Origin: Tomocerus qinae
Lineage: Eukaryota; Arthropoda; Collembola; Entomobryomorpha; Tomoceridae
Reading direction: 5' to 3'
Assembly: GCA_020055645.1 (NCBI GenBank)
Contig: CM034549.1
Span: forward strand, 3,720,001 to 3,784,000
Length of the DNA: 64,000 bases
Shown: positions 32,020-58,877 of the stretch, piece by piece
Layout of the letters: every line of letters begins with the position of its first letter
Position numbering within the stretch: position 1 is the first letter of the stretch
Notes under the pieces: generated by a model
The model's input: only the letters and a program-made list of their open reading frames with translations
Database searches by the model: none
What the model was told of the DNA's origin: nothing
Position numbers and translations under genes: made by a program

Positions 32020-34566
32020 TCAATGATGTGGTGACTGTGCACCAAGTAATGACATGTTTCTGCATTCGTCATTATACCCTGCGAAATTAAATATCCACGA
32101 GCTGGTTGTGTGTGTGGTCAAAAATAGAACACCGATGCAAATTATGTTAATCAATAACCCTGGTTTCATCATTTCTGACAGTTTTAGGTCAGATGAGCTG
32201 TAGACAATGGCGTTCGGTGGAGTGGAGACAGGGAGGACGAAAGCGTAAGAACAAACAGTCGATGCTGCATACACCATGTACAAAGGATGCATCTTCTTCA
32301 CGTAAGACTAAACATTACAGAAATCTAATTAACTTATTGAACTATGTATACTCTACATCTACACCTTACACTACACATTCATAGAATGAGGTTAGGGCTA
32401 ATACCTTTCAGTTAGATCGACACTTGAACTTTAGTTATAGTAAACATAAATATCTTTACTGAAATTGTAATTACCATTCCCAACAGCACAGGAGTAACAA
32501 TGGCTGCACATGCCGTATTTGACGCTACTGATGTGATGATAGCTATGAGGAACAATACTACTAAAAGAATCAACGGTCCTGGCAAGCTTTGCAAAGTTTC
32601 ATTGTTCTCGAGAAATTCTTCGACCCACTTGTTTAATCCCGATTCCTAAAATTAACCAAAGTCATAAACACAATGACTTAATTCTTAGTTAGTAAACACA
32701 TTTATAAATAACAGTGAATGTGTATCATGAATATGAATGACTTATTAGACACCTTTGCTCCCAATGCCATAGCACTGCCACCACCTAATAACAAGAAAAT
32801 GCCATATGGAAACTTTTCTTCGATGAACTTGTAAGAGAGTAATGGGTCTTTCATTCCTTCGCCTAGTCCTAAATTAGCAAAATTTGAATAGGTAGTAAAA
32901 ATATATTAAATATTATGAACAATGTAACTGCTCTTCTATTAGTCTTCGAAATACAAACCTCCCTGTCGGAAATTTTTATAATATTCCCATTTCCCTGGGA
33001 TGATGAACATCAAAGTACAAATGAGCAATGTTGGGGTGCATTCTTTGATAAAACTTTTACCAGACTCCGTTTTCCCAAAAATTGGAATAGAGTCCCAGCC
33101 AGGAATGAATTTTGGGTCTTTAAAAACCCACAAGAAAACCATTATTATGAACAGAGTCAGAAGACCGATTTCGTCAAAACGGATGTTCCCTAGTTCTTCA
33201 TATTTCTCCCGAATAGCTTTCTTCACACTGTTTTCCAATGTTCTGTTAAAATTTTCCTCTTCACTTCCAGATGATTTCTTCCAAAATTTTAAAAAATTTG
33301 GGACTCCAAGAAAATGTATTTGAAGGTAGATCCATGATAGAATTGTGTTGATGACCATTGGGGGTACATTGAACTTTCACAAAGTATTAGTAGTAATTAA
33401 TGTATTAATGTATAGTATTTTAATTCCTTTGAAATCAATCTTTTGGATCGGCAGATATTGTTAAACACTTACATACATCCAATCTAGAAACGTGATTTGC
33501 ATTAGCGCTCGGCATTCTTCGGATGCCAATTCTTCCTCACTGAAAAAAGAAGTTGTATGTAGTTACCACTTACTTATATATTACCTGTCCTAAGTTAATC
33601 CTTTTTTATGGTAAACTGATTTAGGTACTTACGCGTCTTTCCGCACTATATCCAATACAATTACGTTAGTGCCACTTCCAGTTATCACCTATTAAATTCA
33701 TGTTTTCATTAGTAATTTTATAAAGGAAAAAACGTTGGATATAAATAATGTGGTGAAGTAGTGTCCAAAAAAGCAGCAATTGTTTCAGAAAAAAGTACCC
33801 CGGTTCCTCCAATATTTGAAGAATAGCATGTCGCAAGCAAAAACATAGTTTTTAAATTCCGAATTCTTTTGTTCAATTTATCTTCTCGCTTTTTCTGTGC
33901 CTCAGTTTTGGGATATTCTGTTGGAGTTTCGCTTTCGTCTGCGGATAATGTGACATCACTACTTGAACCTTGAACCAATTGTAAATTAGAGCTCATTTGA
34001 GCGTGAACTCCATCCATCTCTTCAGGGATAGACATTTTAGAATTTTCTAATTTCTCTATTGGCTCTTTTGAGGTGTCTATCATTTTCTGCAACATCACGA
34101 TGTTAAAATACAGACAGTAAAAATTTAAAGATTCTTTCTGTGATGGCTATGATCTAATCTTAAACGACTTTAAGTAATCTATTATATTTACTATATGGGA
34201 TAATGTAATTGAAATTAGTTATCAACTCACACTTCGCAATTCTTCCATTATGGCATGAACAATAGGTACCATCATAGCCGTTGTACTGGTATCATTAAAA
34301 GTATTGTTGTTATAATATTATGGTCACAAATTAGCTCACTTAAAGAATATTACCTTGTGTTATTCATCCACATGCTAAAGTACAAAATATACACAGTCAG
34401 AATACTTATTTTTAGAATTGTTTTGAAAACTGGTTATAACTGGCCTCCCAACATTCATTACTCATTTAAACATACTTAATCGTATAATCTTAATATTTAA
34501 TCGTATGTATCTGTTTGATATCATTACCTCAAAAACATAGTCGTGAACATGATTCCCAACATCAGC
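32020..34566 (-). CDS. SLC13 sodium-carboxylate/sulfate transporter, gene A, exons 4-13
   Basis: Exons (minus order) are 34,566-34,528, 34,374-34,354, 34,285-34,231, 34,086-33,799, 33,688-33,633, 33,539-33,473, 33,373-32,959, 32,868-32,753, 32,645-32,475 and 32,307-32,020. With exons 1-3 they join in phase to 654 aa without a stop. They encode the family core: MWMNNTSTTAMM (164-175, the first sodium-binding SNT site with Ser replaced by Asn), a hydrophilic loop from about 189 to 270, IGGTGVITGSGTN, a second loop, LLLGGGSAMALG, the second SNT site (Ser544-Asn545-Thr546), and the C-terminal signature SYAFVLPVSTPPNAIV (579-594). Family members (INDY, NaDC, NaS) are multi-pass plasma-membrane symporters that take up succinate, citrate or sulfate with Na+. 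Substrate cannot be told from sequence alone. The length is slightly above the usual 550-620 aa because of the loop in exon 7. Confidence 0.88.
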
Positions 34567-34785
34567 CTACAATGGATAGATAAAGATAAAATTGTAAGAG
34601 TCACAAATAAAATTATATCTTTACAATTAATTCTTAGGAACCGATCAAGTCCTGAATATTGATTTAAAAAAACACTATTGACTATATTAAGGAGGGGTGG
34701 TAACTTTCAGAGCAAGAAGGATAAATACTGTGACACTTTGCGAGGTGTGCATAAATTGCGATACAATATTATTAGCTCAATATCG

Positions 34786-37700
34786 TCGAGGCTAGCGTAA
34801 TAGGAAGGCTCACTCATATGTCTCAAATGGAAGCGGACAAAATATAGTTACCGCCTTTACCGTGAGCGCTTATAGACTCCCCTTTCAAATGTGAAATAGT
34901 ATTACTTTTATTAGCATTTCAGAGACAAAAAAAATTAATTTTGCTGATATTTTCAGTTTTATGTAATAAAAATACAATTACATCAAGTTAGAGACCTAAT
35001 AATATGGGTAGACAATGTGCTGTGCCTTTTTGTACATCAAGAATAGGACCAAATACCAATGAAAAAACCAGTTTTCACGAGTTTCCGTCAGATCTGAATA
35101 TTCGAGGACTGTGGATTAAAAATATTTCTAGAGGAGAAATTGGAAATAAATCAAAACTTTGGTCTCCTTCAGAGGATAGGTAAACAAATAATTGGTTGTT
35201 ATTTATGATTTTTAAAATGTCACAAAATATAACATCGAATTAGTGATGTATATATATATTACCTAATTATCTAACTTATTATTATCTTTCATGCAAGGTC
35301 ATGCGTTTGCAGCAAGCATTTTAACGAACAGGATTATAAGGAAGGTCTAAAAATACGAAAGCTAAAAACCGGTGCTGTTCCTACAATATTTCCACAGTAC
35401 CCCCAATATAAAAGACCAGGGTCGCTTAAAAAAAGACCAAGCCCTAAAAAAAGAAAAATCTCAGAAACAGATCAACTTTATTTAGCTCCAGAACCACTAA
35501 ATTGGGAAAACGATGTTTTACAGCTCACACCATCAAATTCAGAAGCTCAACAAAAATGTGAAAACGATGCTGTCGAAAAATGTGAAAATCCCGACAATGT
35601 CAAGTTATTTTTATTGGCCAAGAAGAGAGAAGAAAGGCTACGAAATAAATGGAGAATTAGGCAGAAAGAATACTGTGGTCGATTGAGGAAGTTAAATGCA
35701 AAATTAGCAGCCAAAGACAAAGAGTTAGAAATACTCAGAAAACATATGAAGAACTGCCAAGATTTTAGAATTAAGGAGATAGAAAAAGACAGCAGAAGAG
35801 GATTGTACACAATCAAAAATGTTATCCGAGCAAATAAATTCCTACGGAAGAAAAAAGTTTCATTGGTCCGAGTTTTGTCTTCGAATGTGCGTTTTATGGC
35901 ATTCCAAATCACCGAAAGGGTACCGGATGGCAAGGCGTTTAAATTTATTTCATTTACCATCAGTCAGTACATTAAGGCGTTACATTGGACCTTCAAAACT
36001 AAATCAGGGATTTACTCCATTAATTGAAGAACGACTTAGAGCAGAAAGAAGTAAGCTAAATGACACGGAATTATATGCTTCCCTAATATTTGATGAGATG
36101 TCGATAAAACCGTGTTTAAAGTACGTCAAACAGGCTTCAAAAGTTGTTGGTGGTGCCATTATAGGAAAGAAATGCAGCGAAAATACAGAAAACCTAGCAA
36201 ATAAACTGCTTTGTTTCTTATTGAAAGGACTTTCAACGGACTACAAAATTCCAGTTTCATATTATCTTTGCAAGCAAGTTCAAGGGGACGATTTAGTTGA
36301 ATTGTTGGGAGTTATTATCCAAAAAGTGGAAGACATCGGATATAAAATACTTAGAATTGTTTCGGATGATGCCACTACTAATGTAAAAGCTATGAAATTG
36401 CTTTGTGGCGGAGTATTGAAAAGTGAAATTCAAAACCCATTTTGCCCAGATAGGCCATTATTTCTTTCTTTTGACCCCTGCCACATTCTCAAAAATCTTC
36501 GAACTCAACTGCTTGACGAAAAACGTACAATGGTATTCAGAAAAAGCGTTAAAACTGGAAAGAAGGTGAAAGTTGAGGAGGAAAGAATTTCCGGGAATCC
36601 TATCCGGAAACTTTACAATCTTCAAAAGGATCAAACTGTAAAGCCTGTAAGATTCTTGTCTCGGAAAGTGGTTTACCCCAATTACCTCTTGAAAAAATGC
36701 ACGTAGGACGGCATTAAGAATATTTTCTCCCGAAATTATAGCTACCTTGAAGCTGTTTAGCGAACAAAGGAAGGAAGGATTTATTAATATTCAGGGTACC
36801 ATTCTCTTTATGGAAAATGTCAAGAAATGGTTTGAAGTTAGAATTTTTAAACTGAATTAAAAATATAATACCTGTGAGTTTCAATTTTTAAATTTCTGAA
36901 TAAATTTTGTTGACATTTTTAGGTCCATAATGTTGCAGATGGACGAGCAGATATTAAAAGTAGAAACCCAAACAAATCACCATTTTGGAGATTAGAAGAC
37001 GATAGATTGAAATGGCTGGAAGGAGAATTTTTGGACTATTTATCATTGTGGAAGGAGGGTAGCAAAAACAAAAAGGAATTCATAACAGCAGAGACTTACG
37101 AAGCCTTGAAAACTACATCAGTAGCGACAACAAAATGTGTCAAGTAATGAACTAAAATTATTTAAATTGTAATACGTTTCTCTTCTGTACTATTTTTTGG
37201 ATATTTAATCTCACAGGTATTTATTGCAACACGGGTTTTTATTTGTTCTGACAAGAAAGCTTTCCTCCGATGACATTGAAAGTCTTTTTTCAGGACTAAG
37301 AAGTTGGCAAGGATCAAATGATCAAACAAATGCAGTTGGAGTCCTATATGGAATTGAAAGAATTCTTAAGCTTGGCTTGATATCTCCATCTGAAAACAGT
37401 AATGTAGATGCTGACGGAACGAATACTCTATTTTCTGATTTCGCAAAAAGTAAACCGGAGGCTACTGAAAAAGATCTACAGATTACTCCTATGGTGATTC
37501 AATGGGCTGAAAGAATTCGTGTTGCAAAAGGTTCGGTGATTGCTTATAATGCCTGAGATATTTATATTTCTGAAGCTAAAATTAATGGTTACTATTTATA
37601 TGCACAGATTTGGTCTCAATAGACTATCAAAGCGCAGGGATAACTATGATTGCTGGATTTTGCGCAAGAATTGTTAAAGAAAAAGTACCTTGCTCTACAT

Positions 37701-38232
37701 CAGCGCAAAACATTTTGGTAGAAGATAAATCTTTAGAATGCAATCGCTTTATAGCGCTTCAAGACAGAGGTGGCTTGTGCTACCCCTCGCCTCGTTTCAG
37801 TGGTATTATAAAATGCATCGTTGATACGCTTTCAGCGTTTGGACCTCAAGTACTAACCGTAGATAATGTGGATAAAAAACTCATTCGTTTTTTAGAAAAT
37901 TATGTACTGGCAAGTCAAATCATATGTGGATGCTGTGACGCTTCTCATTCATTACAAATAATAAATGTTATTCTTAGATATGTAGTTAAGATATATCTTG
38001 TAAACTACACAACAAATGTGACGGATAAAATTGATAAAGTGAAGTTTCATAACAAGTCTTTGTCCAAAAAAGTTAAAAAACTGTAATAAAGCTATGTAAA
38101 GGGTTATGAAAAGTAAGTAATTTTTGGGAGTCTATGTGCGCCCTCTAACAGTAACTCGCAAGGAACTTTTGCCGTCAAAATTTACATGTGTAAGATACAG
38201 AATGAGTGAGCCTTCCTATTACGCTAGCCTCG
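34786..38232 (+). mobile_element. P-superfamily (THAP) DNA transposon, 3,447 bp
   Basis: It has exact 31-bp terminal inverted repeats at 34,786-34,816 and 38,202-38,232, beginning CGAGGCTAGCGTAATAGGAA. It is flanked directly by ATATCGT (34,779-34,785 and 38,233-38,239), a 7-base duplication, close to the 8 bases usual for P elements. It encodes one spliced THAP transposase on the plus strand, now frameshifted. The perfect termini suggest fairly recent insertion or mobilisation in trans. It is nested in the TTAA element, hence younger than that element. Confidence 0.9.
35004..38086 (+). pseudogene. THAP-domain P-type transposase, frameshifted
   Basis: The first exon (35,004-35,179) starts MGRQCAVPFCTS and joins an exon after the acceptor at 35,299; together they form a complete C2CH THAP finger (Cys-x4-Cys, Trp, Cys-x2-His in CSKHF) ending in the AVPTIF box. 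A Lys-rich coiled coil follows. The frame shifts near 35,820, into the catalytic region LPSVSTLRRYIGP, IFDEMSIKP, VSDDATTN and FDPCHILKNL (35,9xx-36,500), then shifts again near 36,690. Later exons (about 36,924-37,146, 37,217-37,555 and 37,611-38,086) carry the C-terminal parts SSDDIESLFSGLRSWQGSND and RFIALQDRGGLCYPS, as in THAP9 and P transposases. The acidic catalytic residues appear present, but two frameshifts make the gene unlikely to give full-length protein. A THAP-only product from the 5' exons remains conceivable. Confidence 0.85.
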
Positions 38233-38632
38233 ATATCGTAAACAAACGCATTGAGGGTATTGCTTATTATTAGTTTGCTTTTCAAACAAGCCAAAAACTG
38301 TCCTCACTTCAATTTTGTTTGGTGATAATCTGACCTGAATCATAAATATCTGGGTAAGTACATTACTACCGTACTAACGACTTGTATCAGATAACGTTTT
38401 TTATATCTTAAAAATATTGCGATACTGTACCTAATATACCATTTAATTTGCAGTACAACAATGAGTCACAAAACATGTGCATCTTTGCCTCCACAAAAAA
38501 GGCAATATATTATATTCCAAAAGAGGTGGTAAGTACTTCATTTCTCTCCGCCTCATTTATTACTTTTAGGCATCAATCATCACTTAAAGTTAATTCAGTA
38601 AGAATAGTATACTTATTATTTTAAATTAACAG

Positions 38633-39782
38633 GAAGACATTTTGGAAATGTCAAAACATTTGACACCAGATGCTTACCACTGCCTGACTTCTAAAATTAT
38701 CAAGCGTAGTCCGTGCAGCCGCATCCAAATGAACTCTGCTAAAAATCTTATCGTGGAGATTAACAAGAAGCCAAAAGCTGCTATGCCTCCTAATGAGGGT
38801 CAGGAGACGTCTGTGAGTAGGCCCTCTAACCCGATTGACCTCGGTGCAGCACCAGTTCCTGGCCCCAAAATTTTAAATCGTGGTTTACCTCATTTCCCTA
38901 CCGTAAGTCAGTTTTAATTGAGGATGTTTAAAAATATTAAATGAGTTGGCAAGATTTTAATTACACTATTATAATTGGAAATAGGTGCCGTTTATTTACA
39001 GAGGTAATTTGGTCGCTGAAGCTAAGGAGGTTTCTTTTGACGTAGAGAAATTAGAACTCCAGGGAAGTCATAAGTAAGCAGCGTCATCAATTGCCGTGGT
39101 CAATAAAAAAGCCAAACTTTTACTGTGGGCAATTATAAATTATCCGAAAATATGCAAATATTTTACTAACCTAACAGTGATAACCAAGGAAATGGTAGCT
39201 AATGGAAAAAAATTAGAGGAGGTTTGTGATTATCTTTTTTAATTAATGATCTACTGGGATTACAATTACTTATTTTATGCTACTACTCACTCATGAAATT
39301 TCCACGAAATTAAATACAAATTAATTTTAACAGACATTGCCTTATATAAAGTCGTGTCTAAAAGGAAAAGTGGTCGTTGCAACTGAAATACAAAAATATT
39401 TGGAGTCATTGGATTTGAATGCTAACACCGTTGAAGCTAGTCAACTAATCGACATTCAAGATTTTTACGTTAATATGAAAAAACAGAAAGTTGAATGTCG
39501 TATTTAAGCAAGCATTTCTTTGGGGTCGACCGGCAAAACATAAATGGTCATCATTCGGCAATTATTGATGCCCGACTGACTATGCTGTGCTATCACCGGA
39601 TGAAAAGATTTTTGAAAATCCACCCAAGTCTACAAAGTTTTCGCTGTCCTGAATTTGACGAAGAGCGATCTGCCGATAAAAAGAAAAAGGATCATCTAAA
39701 ATGGGGAAAAATGTACCTGTGGGTATGTAAAGCCGAAAAAATATCGTTCTCATCTGCAAGACCATTAGGGTATTTTTGGTAA
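38633..39782 (+). pseudogene. REXO4/ISG20-like DEDDh 3'-5' exonuclease relic inside the TTAA element
   Basis: Three exons in phase 0 with good borders are visible: 38,633-38,902, 38,985-39,221 and from 39,334. The low-complexity N-terminal exon resembles REXO4 leaders (Pro/Lys-rich). Exon 2 has the ExoI pair in VSFDVEKLEL, then a stop at 39,075-39,077, then SSIAVVNKKAKLLLW and KEMVANGKKLEEV, which track the REXO4 core. Exon 3 has LKGKVVVATEIQKYLESLDL, where the usual GHD/ND residues of ExoII are lost, and IDIQDFY. After a frameshift near 39,490 come YLSKHFFGVD and GHHSAIIDARLTMLCY, the ExoIII His and Asp. REXO4-type enzymes trim RNA ends in nucleoli. This copy is broken by a stop, a frameshift and a missing catalytic Asp. 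It may be a captured host gene or a genuine second gene of the transposon. Confidence 0.65.
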
Positions 39783-40239
39783 CGCAAATTCAAAACTTTT
39801 TGATGATGATAAGTGGGACTTTGGGGGATCAGCGACTCAAAGTAATGTAAATGATGACGAGTGGGAGTAAGTATTTTTATGATAACATTGGCTATTGGAT
39901 GACACATGATCAAACAATAAAATATTATATTATAATTAAAATGAATTTATTATTTACACCATATTAGGATTGCTACCCAATAACATTACATATTATTATC
40001 ATGCACTTTGAAATAATGTAAAAATGTAGTAATTATAAATTTTGAATGAATTAAATTGTCACTCCGGGGTAATTACCATTACAAATCCCATTCCGTGAGG
40101 TGTAAAATTTTTGAATTTCTATCCTACACTCAAAAAATTATAGTCTATAAAGTAATTGCATTCATTTCTACATCCAAATAACATTACACATTATTGCAAT
40201 TTACCATAAAATTTTTCCATTAATTAAATTGTCATTCAG

Positions 40240-41154
40240 TCATTCATTTAATCCAAATTTAGTTTTCATGGATTCTTGTACATTAACAAAAACACTCGAA
40301 TCTTGGTAAGCTATCATTTGTGAGTAATACATCCCATGCATTTCTTCACTTTTGAGAAATCCTTCGACAATTACATCTGTTTCCATAGAAGTGCTTGTTC
40401 CGTTATTATAGTTTTTAAAACATTTGTGCGGAGAATCAGGATGAACTAAACAAGTGTAGCAGCATTTATTTCGAATGTCGATGTGCAACAGTTTACCAGT
40501 TCGTATTCGATGATAACCGCACAAACAGAAAGAGATTTGTATGAGTGTCCGTACGATAGCTTTCCCCAACTACCGTCACAACTTATTGCTATACATGGAA
40601 TACCATTATAGTAAACAGTTTTTTCATCTTCTAGGGCTAATCGTAGTTCTTCCTTGCCATTTTCTTTTAAATTTTGAATCAAAGATAGTTCTTGGTATTC
40701 ATGTATTTTATATTCATTTGATTTGTATAATTTAAAATTAATTGGAGGGATATCCATTATTTTTAGTAAATCGAAAAGGGAAACATAGTCCCCACCAGAT
40801 TCCATTGTTCCCCAAACTGCGGCAGTATTGATTGGTAAGGAATTGTTTTGAGAGTCCATCAAGACTGTAAACTGCCGACCGCAGTGGCCACATGCAATGT
40901 GAAATCTGCGACGCAGTCCAATCCATGTCTCTTTAAAAAATTTTAAATCACTTTTGAGGCAAACTTTCGCATGCTTTTGTGTTTCTTGGATTAGTATTTG
41001 TAATGATTCGACTGAAACAATTCTTCTTCCATTAATGTCCCGAATTTCGTTCTCTTTCTTCCTTTGATTTTCTAGCACAACAGGAATAAGCTTTTTTGGC
41101 TTAAAGTTTTTAACTCTAGTCTTGATTGGTCTATGTCCGTATTTTTCACCCATC
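40240..41154 (-). pseudogene. Mutator/Kolobok-like transposase, frameshifted
   Basis: The start is taken as the ATG at 41,154 (MGEKYGHRPIKTR), the usual opening of this animal family; the frame is also open upstream. A linker GRRIVSVESLQ follows, then a zinc-binding-like region with CGHCGRQF, then WGTMESGGDYVSLFDLLKIM DIPPIN, and the first catalytic block ISCDGSWGKLSYGHSY. The frame then shifts near 40,500-40,540 into GKLLHIDIRNKCCYTC, HKCFKNYNNGTSTSMETDVI VEGF and MIAYQDSSVF, matching the later catalytic blocks (D in DGSW, E/D in ME-D, D in xDSS). One frameshift inactivates it, and the C-terminus seems short. It is convergent with the exonuclease-like relic and within the same TTAA borders. 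Confidence 0.75.
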
Positions 41155-41204
41155 GTGCAAAAAAATCGTCTACCGGGGTGTAGCCGTTTGGATATCCCAC
41201 TCAA

Positions 41205-42451
41205 ACGTTTGTACGAGTATCACAATACTTCTTGTCTGACTGGCTTGTATACAATAATGTTGCCAATTAAATGAGGATTGTATATTTTGATCTATACGTT
41301 GATGTCTTGTCGAGTCTGGCTTCTTACTCTAGTTGACCACGGTTACGTAAATATGAATAATGAGTTACACTATTCATGCTTCACGTTTTAAAAATAGGAA
41401 TATCGTATCTTAATATGCAATAATAAACTATTCTGTTTACCCCGAATTGCTATGTATGCTCTTGCTCTACGACGTTTTGAGGATTGCAAACAATGATCTT
41501 ATTGGATTCCCAGTCAATTCACGCAACTAAACACAGTCGGTGACAATTACTGTTGAAATACAAAAAAACTAGTTATAATACTCCAAGATGTAGTTTATAA
41601 AAATGATGATTTCGAAACTACTAATTTGCAGTAAGAAATCAATCTTAATTCGCAATTTTTTACCCGTATCAGCTGACGAGGATTTCAAGATCAAACAGAA
41701 TGATATTTTCGAAGGTTTGGACTCCTAGTCGAGTCTGGCTTCTAAATCTGGTTGACCACGGTGATAGTTACTGCTGAAACATGAAAATATAATTGCAAAA
41801 TTTGATGCTGCTAGTAATTTATATAATTAATATGTCACCTCGAATTAGTTCTCTTATACTTACCACCTCAACTTATCCTTTTCAGATGTAGAGTTTGATG
41901 AGGGGCGAGGTCAAGAATTTTAGGGTTAAATGATTAAAAAATTAAAACTGATAGGAAAATGTCAGAAATAACATTTCGTAATTCTAAAGGAATGCACAAT
42001 CAACAATTGTACAATTGTGTTTGTTGGTTGTATTTCCACCATTATTTATGAATACTCCGTGCTGTCCTCCCGCAATTTTTATCGCAGTTCTTAGGCAAAA
42101 TTTTGCATGTAAAATCTTTAAAAAATGATTTCAAGATTTTGGAAAAACGTAAAAATATAACAAAAATGCCATAAAAAAGAGGGGAAAAAATGAGGGAGAG
42201 CATGAGGCGCCTTTTTTTGAATTTGTGTCTGCAAATGTGAACAAAAATTCAAAATATATTTCTTACGTGTATTTCCCCACTCAAAATCAAAATTTTCAAA
42301 TTGAATTTTCGATGACTTAAAAAATGATTTTTGAAAATTGGGCTTTCATGCTCGTTTTAAAAATCTTTGTAAATTCTGAAATAGAAAACCGCATGCCTGT
42401 ACGTTTAGTCCATTGCTCTGAGTAATATACGCTGAAAGTCCCCACCCCTCC
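41205..42451. other. non-coding right part of the TTAA element
   Basis: No gene is seen. A word starting GTCGAGTCTGGCTTCT and followed by GTTGACCACGG occurs twice in direct orientation (about 41,311-41,343 and 41,731-41,763), probably subterminal repeats bound by the transposase or old duplications. The far end is the inverted terminus. Confidence 0.45.
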
Positions 42452-42507
42452 TTAATAAATACGGTAATAAAAAATATGGTGTAGGTGAAGGTAATTAAAA
42501 ATGTTAC

Positions 42508-44738: not shown

Positions 44739-45358
44739 TCAGATATCCCAATTGGCGTTGCCGTCATTCAGGATCATTGCCAACACAGAGACAGAACTTC
44801 TTCCCAGAAACCGTGCACCAGATGAACGACCCGTAATGTTCATCTTCTTCTCACAGTAGTTATCATAATCCTTGAAACCATAGAGGGGATCCAAGAAAAG
44901 CACCACGCAACCATAAAGAACAGCATTGGTTATAAGTGTAATGGGGAGACCAGGTTTGAATATGTCCAGTTGAGAAAGACCACCAGCGTCATAGACGATC
45001 GTATTTGGAGGAGTTGACACAGGAAACATGAATGCGTAAGAAGCTGAAATTGTAGGAGCAAGTATGAGGAACCCCGGATGAATGTTTTTCCTCTCAGACT
45101 GTAATATTAAAAATCCTTTATATTTATAATTTACTGAGAGCTGGCAACGACTGTTAGACATTAGAAAATTGATTCGTACCAAACTTAAGAGAACTGGAAC
45201 TAAAATGAGAGCAGTTGCGGTATTGGAAGCAACACTGGTCACAACGCCAACGATGATCATGGACATCAATAATATCATATGTCTATTCAACCCTGCTATG
45301 AATTTATTTTCGTCCAGAAATTCTCCAAGGAATGCATTTAGTCCCGAGTTTTTCGCAC
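44739..45358 (-). CDS. SLC13 transporter, gene B, last two exons
   Basis: Exon 45,358-45,180 begins GAKNSGLNAFLGEFL and holds the second sodium-binding motif in TSVASNTATALILVPV. Exon 45,098-44,739 begins SERKNIHPGFLIL, carries the signature SASYAFMFPVSTPPNTIVYD and ends at the TGA at 44,739. The tail, rich in Ser and Gly (about the last 35 residues), is longer and different from gene A. An AATAAA follows within a few bases of the stop (44,730-44,735), unusually close if it is the polyadenylation signal. Gene B is a paralogue of gene A in the same orientation and lies upstream of it; sequence between them shows only the broken exon copy. Frames and phases are all consistent, so the gene may be functional. 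Confidence 0.85.
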
Positions 45359-45710
45359 CTACAGTCAAAGATATATTAATCAAGTTTCAACAAATATTTT
45401 GTCCCCTACTTCATATTCCAGTACAGGGGGCAGGTTTCTACTTTGTCCGGCTAAGAAGCTTTTGACCAGCAGACTGGCCATTTTAGCCGACCGGCTGGTT
45501 AAAATCGCCGGTCATTGAACGATTGGTGCAGGTCAACTTCTATACGTCAATGGTTAGGTACAAGGTTGCTATAGAGAGTTAGGGCAGTATTATTATTATT
45601 AATCATCGCATAGTCGCATTTATTATCAGAAATCAGTTTGAACAAATTAAGTCATGCCAATTTCCCTCGGGCGAGGGCTATTAGATTGTCAAGAGTATGC
45701 ATAATGGCAG

Positions 45711-51639: not shown

Positions 51640-54600
51640 TTTCTGCAAATATCTAAGACCCTTATCCTACTGAGCCAGTCATATACTATTGATGAGTATA
51701 GATATACTACTGCTCAAGCCGCGAGGACTTACTTGCAGTGACTCCCTGAACAGCTTTACTGTTCGGAGAAGCCACTCATTCGTCCTGCAGACATACAAAA
51801 TGAAAGCAGAGACGACAAGGGAAACCCCGGTAACTCATCAACATTAATGATGAAATTGCTCAGGTGTTTGAATCTCAACTCGCTCAAAGCTGGGCATTCA
51901 GTTGCATGGTGGACCGACGTCTCGACGCTTAGTGCGCACAGAGGGCATAGCGGAGACGAATGATTCCCCAATTGATTCTGATGCTTGGCCAAGGAGGAGA
52001 AACCAGTGATTAACTGAGTGAAGACCCTGAGCGTTCTTCTACCCAAACTTGTGAAGTATTTGCTTTTAATGTGTGAGGGTGATGGTAGGAATAATTTGGT
52101 GTTTTTACAGTCTGTACGCTTTTTCCAATTACGTATGTTAAGTTTGTTAAAATATTTATTGATAGCGGTTTTAGCACACTGTGAGGAATAAGGCAGTATT
52201 GGTTCAGGACCAAAAACAGCCATTTTTGTTGATTCTTTGGCCATAATGTCAGCCTCTTCATTTCCTATTATACCAGTATGGCTAGGCACCCACTGCAGTG
52301 TGACAGTTGCTTTTTCAGAAAGCTTAAGCAGAGCGCTAAAGCATTCAAGGATCAATGCCGAATCCGTGTAATTAGCCTCAAGGGCTTTTATTGAGCTGAG
52401 AGAGTCGCTGCAAATAACTACTTCATCTCTCCAGTCCAAATCAGTTATTCTACATATGACCATAAGAATAGCTACCAGTTCCGCTTGGAACACAGTAGAA
52501 TATTTTCCTAGAGGTTGTTGAATGATGATATGTCCATCAGTGCTAGCAATGAATGAAGCACATCCCGTTAGATTATCTATTTTAAACCCGTCCGTATAAC
52601 AGACCAGTCTTTGATTTGAAGGTTGAAGGATATCAGGGTTTTCTGTTTCAACTACAGTGAAGTTTTTACCCACAAGCGGTGTTTGAGGAATTTCATCCAT
52701 TGGGAATTCCAACTCAGGTATATGCTTTAAAACATTTGTAACAAGATCAACGTGAGTTAATCTTTTAAGGCTGCCTCGTCCCTGCCAAGGCAGCCATTTG
52801 CCAGTGCGACGCAGTCGATGCGCCGTTGTAATTGCTGTTTTGGTAAGAAACAAATCTATAGGCTCAATGCCTACTATCCATTCTAATGCAGCAGTTGGTG
52901 TACTATGCATTGCACTAGTGATCATGAGACAAGCTAGACGTTGGACTCTAGTTAAAGTTGTCATTCTTGATTTGTTATGCACAGCTGTTAGCCAAGAGCA
53001 AGCTGCATAAGATAAAGCAGGTCTGACTACTGCTGTATAAAGCCACAACATAACTTTTGGGGATAAACCCCAGCACTTACCAACAGCTCTTTTACATTGT
53101 ATGAGAGCTGCTTTTGCTTTAGTACTTTTGATATTACAATGGTGATTCCAGGTCAGACCATTGTCTAGGTGCACACCTAGGTACCGGATGTTACTAACAA
53201 ATGCAATATTTTTACCTCTTAATCTAAGAGGTTTCATGTTTGGTTTTTTATGCCTTGTATGAAATATTATGATTTCTATTTTGTCAGGGTGAATAGATAA
53301 ATCCCGCTGACTGCACCAGTTTTCAATGATATTAAGGGCTCTTTGTCCCAATGCCCTCATGGTTGCTTCATCAATGCCAACCTGAAGAAGGCGTAGATCA
53401 TCTGCATAAGCTTGTCTATAAATTGAACTAACACTGGAGAGTTTCTCCAGTAGTTCATGAATGACAAGGTTCCATAATAGTGGCGAAAGTACTCCACCCT
53501 GGGGACAACCACGTAGCATTTACGGTTCGATCCATTAGCATTCGTTCGATCCAACGTATGATCGTGGGATCGATTCCCTCTCTTTCAAGAGCCAGATGTA
53601 TGGTTTTAAAAGTGGCGTGACTAAAAGCCCCTTCGATGTCTAAGAAAATGCCTAAAGCCATTTGATTGCTTTTAAGAGCACATTCGGTGCGAGCAATATA
53701 TTGATGAAGAGCAGCGTCCGTGGAAGAACCACTTAAGTATGCAAACTGCCCAGCATCTTTTAGTTTATTTTCAAGTACCGGAGTCTTGATGCTCCAGTCA
53801 ATGATACGTTCAAGTATTTTCATACAAGTAGAGATGAGGGATATTGGTCGCCACGAGTTAGCTTTTTGATAGCTACTTTTGGCAGGTTTAGGTATGAAGA
53901 TTACTTTGGTCTGTCGCCAAGCTTGGGGTATATACCCAAAAGCTAGGCTAGCTTGTAGAATATTAAGTAGATGTGGGGCTAGCTCTCTTCTGGCCATTTG
54001 AAGCATGACTGGCTGAATGCCATCGCAGCTGGCAGCTTTAAACGGTCCAAATGAGCTTATGGCCCTTTGGACTTTTTCCAACGTGAGTAACTCGGCAATA
54101 GAGTTGTCAACACAGATGCTATAGTCTGGCGTGGAATGTACTATTTGATGATCATTGCTAAGTACTATTAAAAAGTACTCGAATGTCTCGTAATGCTGTT
54201 TTAGTTCCTTCAGTTCTCTTAGATTTGTATTTCCTAAGAGCGACCTGTAATTCCTTTCGAAGTCTAGTAAGATCCTGATTCCACCAAGAAGAAAGTTTAC
54301 CACCATTTCTGATGGTCTTCAGTGGACAGGCTTTGTGAAATGCATTAATGATAATGTCATTGAGATTATGCACCTGTGCATCAAGTTGATCGACTGTATC
54401 AATTGGAGTGCAGGAAATTTTTGCAATTTTGTTTGTTGACTGTCCTGTTATATAGGGACCAGTCAGCTTTCTTGGGGTTTCTAAATTGAATTGGCATTGG
54501 AAGCTTTATTTCTAATTCATATGTAATGTACATATGATCGGAGAGTGTAATGTCGTCTTCCACTCTCCAGTTATAAATGTGATGATGGAGACTTTCGGAG

Positions 54601-55085
54601 CAAAGAGTGATATCAAAAACCTCCTCTCTGCCCATACCATCACGAAAAGTTGGTTTATGTCCTCGATTCAGTATTTCAAGGTTGGAGCATGCTATGAAGT
54701 CAAGTGGATCTTCCCCACGCTCATTGGTATTAGTGCTACCCCACACTGTATTGTGGGCATTAGCGTCGCTTGCAAACAATATAGGTAATGATTTTTGGTG
54801 GCAGTAGTAGATTAAATTCCCAACTTCTTTAGAGGGTGGATGCTTTTCCTTATCTGGTAAATATGCAGATGCAAGTACAATATCCCTATCATTAATTCTA
54901 ATTTTTAGGGCAACCAAATCTCTACTCCAGAAGGAGCAGAGAGGCCAGACTTTCAAATTATTTGATGAAACAATACATGATCTAGGGTTTTCAGGACCTT
55001 CGATGGCATGAAGTTTCCCCATTCTTGATAGGCCACAAACCTTTCCCTTATATGCATAAGGTTCTTGTATAAATATTATGTATGT
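51640..55085 (-). mobile_element. I/LOA-like non-LTR retrotransposon, 5'-truncated
   Basis: The copy runs from within the endonuclease domain (about 55,085) to an A-run near 51,632-51,643, in minus orientation. It has endonuclease, reverse transcriptase, RNase H and a C-terminal Cys/His knuckle in that order. The RNase H domain places it in the I-group (I, LOA, R1 relatives) rather than CR1 or RTE. No first ORF is present. It sits directly against the 3' part of a second element of the same orientation. Confidence 0.85.
51756..55085 (-). pseudogene. ORF2 of the I-like element: endonuclease-RT-RNase H, frameshifted
   Basis: The APE-type endonuclease part starts IFIQEPYAYKGKVCGLSRMG (about 55,065) and includes FASDANAHNTVWGS and the catalytic LSDHMYI. 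A frame change near 54,400, another near 54,200, and one near 53,520 break the frame. Reverse transcriptase blocks follow: FKAASCDGIQPVML, IFIPKP, SWRPISLIS, FLDIEGAFSH, GCPQGGVLSPLLW and the YADD catalytic motif (AYADDLRLL). The last open stretch (51,756-53,519) has RNase H with all acids in place: CYTDG, QAELVAIL, CSDSLSSIKAL and GNEEADIMAK. A zinc knuckle CPLC-x9-HHATEC then precedes the stop. At least three frameshifts make it inactive. Confidence 0.9.
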
Positions 55086-55089
55086 GTTG

Positions 55090-57618
55090 CCTTAAGAATG
55101 TACTTATAGTTAGATGATACAATTTACTTATATATAGTGAACTTATTACAGAATCAATACATGATAGATCGCAAAAATGTGTATACAGAGGTGGATTACA
55201 GTCAATTAATTGTTTACTTAGCAGGAAGCATTTCAACTTAGTCTTAAATTTGTAAATATTATTAGCAGTTTTCACATCATTAGGAATAGAATACCGAAGA
55301 ATAGGGGCTCGGTGGGTAACTGATCTGCGCCCATAAGAGTTAATTACATTTAGGTCTTTAGCATACAGATTATTTCTAGTGCATATTGCATTACAGTTAT
55401 TTAAGTCTATATAGTTGATAAAATAATCAGGACATGTATTATTTTGTATTGAATACATTAGTTTTAGGATTTGGAATTTATATTGTTCACTCGGAAACAG
55501 CCACTTCAGTTTTTCCGTAGCTTCTTCCTTCACACTTTTGAATTTACTTTCATCTAATACGTATCGAGCTGAACGTCTTAATAGTGCCTCTAATTTATTC
55601 AAATTATATTGTGAGGCCGTACCCCAAATACATGCAGTGGCATTCAACACTGATAGCACATATGCATTCATTATTATCGTTTTTGATGTTTCATCCAGCA
55701 AAGTACGAATAGCACAAAGTGAGCGTAACAATAAATTACATTTAGACTGAATGTTTGTAATGTGATCACACCTATTCAACTACTATATAATAACTATTAA
55801 CGAATCTATTATTAGACCCAGGATTTTTATAGATTTTGCTTGCTTTACAATTTTACCATTAACATTAACGTCCGGTAGACTATTAATAACATTAGGGGTA
55901 CCCACTACTAACAATTCCGTTTTTTCTACATTCAATTCCATTCTATTTTCTTCTAACCAAATAAGTATATCTCTGACATCCTCATTAAGCTTATACAATA
56001 TAGATTTAATTTCATTCGGTTTGCCATGAATTATTAAACTATTATCATCTGCAAAGAGAAACATTAGGGAGTTGTTGACTACAAGAGGAAGATCATTAAT
56101 CATAAGAGCAAAGAGAAGGGGCGAAATGATACCACCTTGGGGCACTGAGAGATTAATGTCAAGCGGGCAAGAATAGTTATTTTCCTTAACATATGTGACA
56201 TTTCTTTCAGATACGATTCAAACCAGTGATTGTCTATACCATACCAAAGTAATTTGCTTAGTAATATATCTACATTTAGCTTGTAAAACGCCTTAGAAAT
56301 ATCTAGTGTGAGGAGTATACAAATGTTACCGTTGTTAATTTGATTGTACATAAAATCTGTAATACCTATATATACATGATTAATAGATTGTCCCTCACGG
56401 AAACCAAATTGTCTTGGACTTAACACTTTACTTATAATAACATGTTTTATAAGTTGTCTAAAGACACATTTTTCTGACCGCTTTGATACGAAACACTGAA
56501 TTGATGTAGGTCTTAAGTCTATAGGAAGCTTGGCATCAGGAAATTTAGGTATCGGAATAATTTTTGCCAATTTTAAAGGCTTGCACATTGTTCCTGTACT
56601 TAGGCTATGATTAATAATATTGTAAACTGCTGTGTTTACATTAGGTACAGTTAAGAATAGATTAAATATCATCGGAGATAAATTTAGTGCATCTACCGAG
56701 GTAGATGTCTTCTTTTTGAGGCTATCATAAGCTTTCAACATTTCTGTATATGACACAGGAGATACTTTAAAATTATCTATTACCTCTGGCAAAGAGTAAG
56801 GCTTTGTGGGTACAAATTGCACTGGATTTAAGCACGTACTTACAGCACTATAATGTGAATTAATTTCATATGCACTAATTGTTATTTCGTTATTATTATT
56901 ACTGAAACTTATTAAATTATCCACCGTCCTAAAAACACCTTGTTTCTCAATGTTGAGATTCAACGTATTCCGTGCTTCCTTCTTAAAACTAGTTTTACAT
57001 TTTTTGCTTAGAGATTTTAACAGTTCAGTATCAGAGTCAGTCTTATTTTTAATTTTTATATACTGGGCGTATCTTTGCTTTCTAAGGTCAATAGTTTCAC
57101 TAGACAAGATCACATTGACATTTTTATCCTTTACTTTAATAGGAGCATACTTATCAGCAACAGTTATTAGATTAGTAACTAAAAAGTTTACCATTTCGAA
57201 TTGGTCATTTATATCACCTACAGCGAAGTCAATTTTACTCAATTGATCAGAACTTGCCATTATATCTAATCTTTTATAGTTTCTAAACTTTATAGTTTTT
57301 TTGCACCCTTTGATTTTTCTAATTTTAATGTGGCTTCAACTGCCATGTGGTCAAATAAAAACGGGTCATATATATTAATATCACTTATACTGCTTTGCAA
57401 TTAGTAAAAAGTAAATCTAATTTAGAATCATTTCTTGAGGGTTGGTTAACTAGTTGATTAAAATTATTAGATTTAGTAATACTTTCTAAGGACTTAATAT
57501 GATGTTTAGTCATATCATTATAATTTAGATTGAAATCCCTAAACAAGTCATTGAGTGTATCTAAGTCCTTATCCATGCAAGCGCTATTATAGTCTGGAAC
57601 TCCACGAGAGCTGTGCAT
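55090..57618 (-). pseudogene. ORF2 (endonuclease remnant and RT) of the CR1/Jockey-like element
   Basis: An endonuclease tail (NQPSRNDSKLDLLFTN) is followed after a gap by an RT N-terminal region, IIPIPKFPDAKLPIDLRPTS, RQFGFREGQSINHVY and LLTLDISKAFYKLN. After a frameshift near 56,120 come MPQGGIISPLLFALMINDLP and the catalytic LFADDNSL; after a second near 55,780 comes the thumb and tail region with YVLSVLNATACIWGTASQYN. Frames break at least three times. In the active-site motif the two Asp residues are present. Confidence 0.85.
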
Positions 57619-57639
57619 TCTATCATGCGAGTGTTAATT

Positions 57640-58497
57640 TGACTAGGCAGGGTTAAGTGTTTGTCAGCTCCCATTTCGTCATCATGTGAGATGTTAGTTG
57701 GGTTGAATTCAGTTATTGAGGTTGGTAAAGTGAGTCATTGTGAATCAGCTGTTTGTGCATCAATATCCATTGAATGGGAAGCCGACGAAGATCCATACTT
57801 TTTCTTTTTCGAATCCAACTTTGGTTTGTTTTCATCGGCAAGGAGTTTTCGTTTTACGTTTAACCTCGATCTAATAGCAATTGGGGATGACCTGAACTCC
57901 TTTTGTTGAAGTGAAGTGAGATCTCTTCGTACTGATACCCCTTTTAGTTCCGCAACATCCTTCAGCAGCTTACAGTTTTGAAAGGCAGTTCGGTTGATAG
58001 TAGGAGAATCAAGTCTAAAGTCGGATTGGCCTCGGTGCCCTTGCATCAGTTCGTATATGACGTATATAATTCTTTCACGGAAGTTAATGAGATTATGACC
58101 AGGTAATATGATTATTAGTAGCTTTTGAAGGAGTTCGGCATTGTTATGGTCGTCGCTTTCGGGTATTCCAAAAAAATACTACATTATGTTTTCGTAATAT
58201 CCTGTTCGAAATTTCATTTAATTTGTCTGATGTGATGCCACTCGAATTAATAGCACTGATTTGACCATCGAGCTGATTGACTTTAATTTCAATATTTTCT
58301 ATCTTGTTATTTGGTAGTTCATTGTCTTTCGTGAGATTGGTGACGGTTTTTTTGATTATATCGAATTCAGATTTGAGGTCTCTCTGTTCTTGAATTATGG
58401 TGTCGAGTTTTTCGAGTTGTAATAGAATTAGCTTGTCGGTTGGTGTTGGTATAGTAGAGCTGTTTTTCTCTGTTGTAGATTTGCCAATTGGTGACAT
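57640..58497 (-). pseudogene. ORF1 of the CR1/Jockey-like element
   Basis: It starts MSPIGKSTTEKNSSTIPTPT, followed by a long heptad-like coiled coil (about residues 20-100) and KHNVVFF, the start of an RRM-like fold typical of non-LTR ORF1 proteins. The frame changes near 58,170 and continues ESDDHNNAELLQKLL. The C-terminal part (57,735-58,046) is Lys/Arg-rich (NVKRKLLADE, KKKKYG), consistent with nucleic-acid binding. ORF1 proteins package the element's RNA. One frameshift makes it a pseudogene. Confidence 0.65.
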
Positions 58498-58877
58498 GGA
58501 ATATTGTTGAGGAACGAATCAGATTCAGCAATATAAAACAAAAAGCAGTTGTGGTGAATGTGAGGGTGGTAGAGATTATCACAGCAGAAAAATTAACTAC
58601 TCAAAATAGCCAAATTACGAATATTTAAAAGTAAATTTTTGAGAGAGGAAAATTTGGACCTCCAACATTCAAGCCGCCCGCCATTCCATTTCACCATTGT
58701 TTCAACACACACACCTTGGCCGCTTCCCGTCTTGATAATGTGATTATCTGCATTTGTACAGCTAAACCATACGATTTAGTACTGTACATTCAGATTCAGA
58801 TAATATCCACTCTGTGCTTTGAAATTTCAGCTCGTTGCTCGTTTGAGTAGTTGGGACTTGTTGGCACACCACACAGT

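Follow-up and report, generated by a model that had tools for sequence, protein, structure and literature searches.

The window analysed here is a stretch of 64,000 nucleotides from the collembolan Tomocerus qinae (C4:3720001-3784000, in a host genome of 334 Mb in 115 contigs), and its positions 34691-42451 contain a Kolobok transposon that inserts at TTAA and carries its own exonuclease gene; this copy is shortened and broken. The ends of this element belong to a pair of 26-nt inverted repeats (34685-34710 and 42432-42457, 92% complementarity). They begin GGAGGGGTGG, start at 34691 and 42451, and have TTAA outside both, so that a left terminal inverted repeat with a GG... end (34691-34710, plus strand) and a right one with a ...CC end (42432-42451, minus strand) lie between two copies of the TTAA target site, at 34687-34690 and 42452-42455. 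The first 96 bases of the element are 100% identical at no fewer than 16 other places in the genome. An earlier model-generated reading of this stretch (the original prediction) had described TTAA-flanked ends enclosing a transposase relic and, convergent to it, a spliced relic of a DEDDh exonuclease with the motifs FDVE and H....D, and this description is confirmed by the letters themselves, by profile searches and by the other copies.

The exonuclease gene lies on the plus strand and has four exons (38475-38528, 38633-38902, 38985-39221 and 39334-39867). All of them have GT..AG borders and are joined in phase 0, as the original prediction had it, and the intron borders are kept in all 17 aligned copies (here and below, the window copy is included among the 17). 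Exon 3 carries the ExoI motif FDVE and, in the window, one in-frame stop. Exon 4, whose frame is broken in the window, carries the ExoIII motif H....D and a tyrosine in place of the ExoII aspartate; this codon is TAT in 17/17 aligned copies and GAT (Asp) in the longer relative F84 described below. One copy, L016, reads through all four exons, and the other 16 rows have stops or frame breaks. The spliced protein of L016, which departs in frame from its relatives near the C-terminus, matches Pfam RNase_T at E=3.8e-4 with 21.5 bits, slightly below the cut-off of 24, and the protein of exons 3 and 4 of F84 does so at E=9.3e-8 with 33.2 bits. The transposase relic (40243-41219, minus strand) is of the Mutator/Kolobok type and covers positions 1-264 of the 357 of Pfam PF20700, its pieces matching at E=9e-26 and 1.7e-17. 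Upstream of it, a 38-nt direct repeat (89%) at 41306-41343 and 41725-41762 is possibly a transposase binding site.

The window copy is itself interrupted by a P-type transposon on the plus strand (34787-38232), which fills 44% of the 34691-42451 span. It has a perfect (100%) 32-nt inverted repeat at its ends, and Pfam searches identify a THAP domain (E=5.3e-8) and a TNP-like RNase H domain (E=2.9e-27). It is flanked by two copies of ATATCGT (34780-34786 and 38233-38239), the sequence that the insertion duplicated. The insertion site is single and uninterrupted in all 16 sister copies fetched from elsewhere in the genome; the P element is therefore not a part of the Kolobok transposon but entered the window copy afterwards, and the THAP/P transposase was rejected as a Kolobok component. 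The THAP domain, the P-type RNase H-like transposase domain and the short inverted ends are those of a P transposon, but the duplication here reads as 7 bp, and that of P transposons is 8 bp. While its TTAA ends hold up, the original prediction of 34691-42451 as one element thus overlooked the nested transposon, and likewise the internal deletion treated below. The search with the left end, in which the best 40 of 114 candidates were scored, returned 42 rows: the window itself, 16 places with the Kolobok end only (query 1-96, 100%) and 25 with the P part. At least 25 further rows accordingly match the first part of the P-type transposon; identity is 100% in two of them and 92-94% in most of the rest, and the loci include C2:9894561, C2:9888050 and C3:50016633.

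The 16 Kolobok-end-only places, all of which were fetched, are the sister copies used throughout; because they were selected by an identical left end, the sample favours young copies. The segment 38229-42455 follows the Kolobok left end directly in every one of them, at 94.3-99.6% identity, so that the same 4.3 kb unit is present at 16 other places without the P element. TTAA stands on both sides in 15 of the 16, L011 reading CGAA at the left, and the flanks vary from copy to copy. The exonuclease is found in 16/16, at the same position: no sister copy lacking the gene was seen, and the claim that both genes belong to one TTAA element is borne out. Together with the window, the copies fall into three groups with 97.2-98.5% identity between and 99.6-100% within them. 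A DNA search with exon 4 listed at least 40 places at 97-100% (best 40 of 66 candidates scored). One more copy, L026, lies directly against the sister copy L009 at C2:36.48M, one terminal TTAA being common to both, as if one 4.3 kb copy had inserted into the target site of the other. At C2:14.18M (L025:504-711), a 222-base stretch matches the right end of the element at 78% and has no exonuclease or transposase match; with this resemblance to the right end only, it is perhaps a short non-autonomous relative.

The window copy is an internally deleted derivative of a Kolobok element whose longer relatives encode three genes. These are the DEDDh exonuclease and, in convergent orientation, a full DDE transposase followed by a YqaJ/lambda-exonuclease-like PD-(D/E)XK nuclease. 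The longer form of the window family is F84 (C2:6.47M), which matches it at 94% on both sides of a stretch of about 1.8 kb. This stretch, missing from the window family, codes for the transposase C-terminus and for a nuclease of the YqaJ type (PF09588, E=2.6e-16). Converted to window numbering from this comparison, the deletion point lies approximately at 40235-40245. The relic stops before the CxxH and the third catalytic residue, and L013, another member of the window family, retains the first two aspartates with CxxH and E deleted; given this and the deletion seen against F84, an autonomous window family is ruled out. The catalytic pattern DDD/E with C/DxxH between the second D and E is complete in F43, F35, F84 and L051, and F32 has it except for the first D, which a frame break has removed.

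Eight such relatives, labelled F with their identity to the exon 4 protein query, were read. All three genes are present in F35 and F32, and F43 combines a 541-aa transposase frame (PF20700 positions 9-357, E=9.3e-71) with a 340-aa YqaJ frame (E=1.5e-17). In F36 the exonuclease and YqaJ are accompanied by the last part of the transposase; F51 combines the exonuclease with fragments of its two partners; F31 has a transposase fragment besides the exonuclease, with no YqaJ match. In the stretch read for F39 the exonuclease stands alone, with YqaJ 4.6 kb and the transposase 6.1 kb away. Ends of the form TTAA-GG...CC-TTAA enclose F43 (6242 bp), F32 (5928 bp) and F31 (4105 bp), both TTAA included; the fetched stretches of F35, F36, F39 and F51 showed no such pair. 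F36 has perfect 14-bp inverted repeats beside TTAA (270/3610 and others), which do not start with GG and leave its YqaJ match outside. The 5'-RR...YY-3' termini thus take the form GG...CC in the window, the 16 sister copies, F43, F32 and F31. The intron between exons 3 and 4 is present in the relatives read and is therefore older than the window family. This age would neither prove nor exclude that the gene was captured as DNA, for which the original prediction had argued from the intron phases.

In an alignment of seven exonuclease rows, D and E of ExoI and H and D of ExoIII are invariant, and the D of ExoII is kept in 6/7, the exception being the window family. Non-synonymous divergence (dN) between families is 0.17-0.35, with synonymous divergence (dS) saturated (3 pairs), and dN/dS between F84 and L016 is 0.33 or 0.49 by two methods. 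Because of the motif conservation and these comparisons, the gene appears to be under constraint from family to family and to be defunct in that of the window. One could also regard it as a passenger that has had no role in transposition since its capture: in the window family divergence is about the same in exons and introns, 14 of the 20 codons differing between L016 and L021 are non-synonymous, and the family has spread with its ExoII aspartate lost in all 17 copies. Yet this family is a deletion derivative that has lost the end of its transposase too, and constraint between families, with catalytic residues kept in six of seven rows, makes a mere passenger very unlikely.

The genome searches scored the best candidates, and their counts are lower bounds. 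A search with the exon 4 protein gave at least 150 matches (best 150 of 207 candidates scored), which reduce to 100 loci, 66 at 60% identity or more and 34 below, the lowest at 31%. At least 82 matches were found for YqaJ and at least 121 for PF20700 (best 114 of 245 candidates scored); 114 of these 121 rows entered the linkage count, the seven omitted ones being second pieces of listed frames, none of which, by eye, lies near an exonuclease locus. Within 7 kb, a transposase match accompanies 76 of the 100 exonuclease loci, YqaJ 37, and both 34. Altogether 79 have one partner or the other, always downstream and on the opposite strand, that is, convergent; the chance proximity of YqaJ would be about 0.003 per exonuclease locus. 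Nesting does occur here, as the P-type transposon inside the same ends demonstrates, and a host gene or separate insertion could in principle have been enclosed between the TTAA-flanked ends by chance, but the 16/16 sister copies and the 79/100 loci linked in one fixed orientation refute this, and we give it a negligible probability. That the gene is a DEDDh exonuclease and a member of the Kolobok element is, in our judgement, close to certain.

The best explanation overall, which we consider probable, is that the window family is a deleted derivative of a three-gene Kolobok element, spreads in trans, and stems from elements whose nucleases process DNA ends. Several observations weigh against it. 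F84 has a frame break in its transposase and no TTAA at its right side; the TTAA duplication, a Kolobok trait, is present in the window, 15/16 sister copies, F43, F32 and F31. Neither partner was found by family searches at 21 of the 100 exonuclease loci, an upper bound, since at least five have remnants by direct comparison (F51 and F31 with fragments; L011, L019 and L024 with a transposase relic at the DNA level). Near thirty of the 82 YqaJ matches there is a transposase match (within 4 kb) and no exonuclease match, and the second exonuclease is therefore not required by every such element. Finally, the DEDDh profile is nearest to ISG20L2, ISG20, SDN1 and PAN2, and several enzymes of these types act on RNA.

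Five of the 30 loci with YqaJ and transposase but without an exonuclease match were read (L047-L051). Apart from E=0.21 in L049, no DEDDh match was found in L047-L050 (C5:13.30M, C1:87.33M, C1:34.70M and C4:18.49M), and in three of these four the transposase and YqaJ are in one open frame of 887-1025 aa; L051 retains a C-terminal fragment of the exonuclease (tblastn E=5e-6). A transposase tree of nine rows, unrooted and with a very long F32 branch, places the DEDDh-bearers including L051 on one side (support 96/94, 98% of bootstrap trees). In the YqaJ tree (10 rows), where F32 is again a long branch, they are not on one side, two changes being needed, and 39% of bootstrap trees have them on one side.

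The original prediction knew of no standard transposon of this type with such a gene, but Kolobok elements with a DEDDh exonuclease have already been named KolobokD by Kojima & Bao 2022 (PMC9587614, of which part was available to us). In that part, a CCHC zinc finger after the first catalytic Asp is given as common to KolobokD, KolobokP, E and 5, and the mark of KolobokE is a lambda-exonuclease-like nuclease (PMC9587614). Our elements share with KolobokD, as described there, both the DEDDh (DnaQ) exonuclease and this zinc finger, whose pattern we see in F43, F35, F84, L051, F32, L013 and also L047-L050. They differ in that the longer relatives add a YqaJ/lambda-type nuclease (E=2.6e-16 and 1.5e-17), which lies downstream of the transposase, is absent from the window copy and is unmentioned for KolobokD in the available part of the paper. 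With KolobokE they share a lambda-exonuclease-like PD-(D/E)XK nuclease that is encoded on the transposase strand, downstream of the transposase, but KolobokE is described there by that nuclease alone and here a convergent DEDDh exonuclease is present; L047-L050, which lack the latter, look like plain KolobokE in their sequences. Both nucleases in one Kolobok element were not found in the open-licence literature searched, and the pairing may be new. Two nucleases that in the accessible text mark the separate lineages D and E are here united in one element. Their convergent arrangement is fixed, in families with as little as 31% identity in the exonuclease, and what accessory nucleases contribute to cut-and-paste transposition, be it repair of the donor site, processing of ends or evasion of silencing, becomes testable in one host. 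An unknown transposon with a captured gene is thereby replaced by a named lineage with one probably new feature.

As to which DEDDh family is involved, a profile of the seven aligned rows was run with hmmsearch against PDB. Its top matches were ISG20L2 (2.1e-11), ISG20 (1.2e-10) and Small RNA degrading nuclease 1, SDN1 (1.8e-7), followed by PolC and PAN2 near 1e-3 and, more weakly, DnaQ and Cas2-DEDDh; up to E=10 there was no match named TREX, ERI1 or exuperantia. By profile, the transposon protein thus appears nearest to ISG20/ISG20L2/SDN1 (PDB 1wlj, 7yw5, 5z9x) among solved structures. These are cellular proteins; those of the transposons have an additional C-terminal stretch, in which CxC occurs in 6/7 rows and FGG in 6/7 rows. 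This affinity may differ from that of KolobokD, whose exonuclease was likened, in the part of the paper at hand, to exuperantia, TREX and ERI1 with BLASTP and HHpred on other sequences (PMC9587614). At E 0.01, RNase_T is matched by only two of the seven rows; the F84 exonuclease has its best NCBIfam matches among PolC-type models, far under their cut-offs. REXO4 presumably belongs to the ISG20L2/ISG20 branch, and the "REXO4-like" label of the original prediction can stand at the level of that branch, whose members come first by profile. A genome search with PF00929 matched three places, two of them in one locus, which we take to be an oligoribonuclease of the REXO2-like kind. No host donor gene was identified through this search, in which those two places were read. 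Up to E 0.01 it listed none of the transposon exonucleases, which are therefore far from the Pfam model.

The window family is very probably a deletion derivative moved in trans: through its intact ends it would use transposase supplied by longer relatives, and copies that are 99.6-100% alike within a subfamily despite broken genes fit a recent spread of this kind. Nucleases of the lambda type degrade 5'-to-3' and those of the DEDDh type 3'-to-5'. Two nucleases of opposite expected polarity could process DNA ends of the transposition reaction, resecting or trimming the broken donor site or the 3' ends of intermediates, after which repair would copy the element back or rejoin TTAA cleanly. We put forward this DNA-end role of the nucleases tentatively, as a suggestion of somewhat less than even probability. 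The similarity to ISG20 and SDN1 leaves room for a different role, in which a 3'-to-5' RNase of the ISG20/SDN type would trim host PIWI-interacting or small interfering RNAs (piRNA, siRNA) or antisense RNA and shield the transposon from silencing, and the order of the profile matches would suit it. A substrate, however, cannot be read from similarity, the gene is found together with a DNA nuclease of the lambda type, and Kojima & Bao, in the part of their paper available, propose a DNA-intermediate role for the exonuclease (PMC9587614), so that we hold anti-silencing to be unlikely, if worth keeping in mind. It is doubtful, too, that an undescribed Kolobok lineage has joined a lambda-type nuclease to a separately acquired anti-silencing exonuclease of the ISG20/SDN type that trims host small RNAs; if true, a DNA transposon would carry its own suppressor of piRNA or siRNA silencing.

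Transfer RNA and Rfam searches of the window gave no matches. Pieces of sodium:sulfate symporter (SLC13-type) genes flank the element on the minus strand, at 32939-33376 and 44739-45386, the profile being matched in its middle by one piece and at its end by the other, so that, as far as these matches tell, the Kolobok element lies between or within SLC13-type genes. Further along, reverse transcriptase and RNase H frames on the minus strand at 51756-58518 can be read as retrotransposons of the non-LTR (non-long-terminal-repeat) type.

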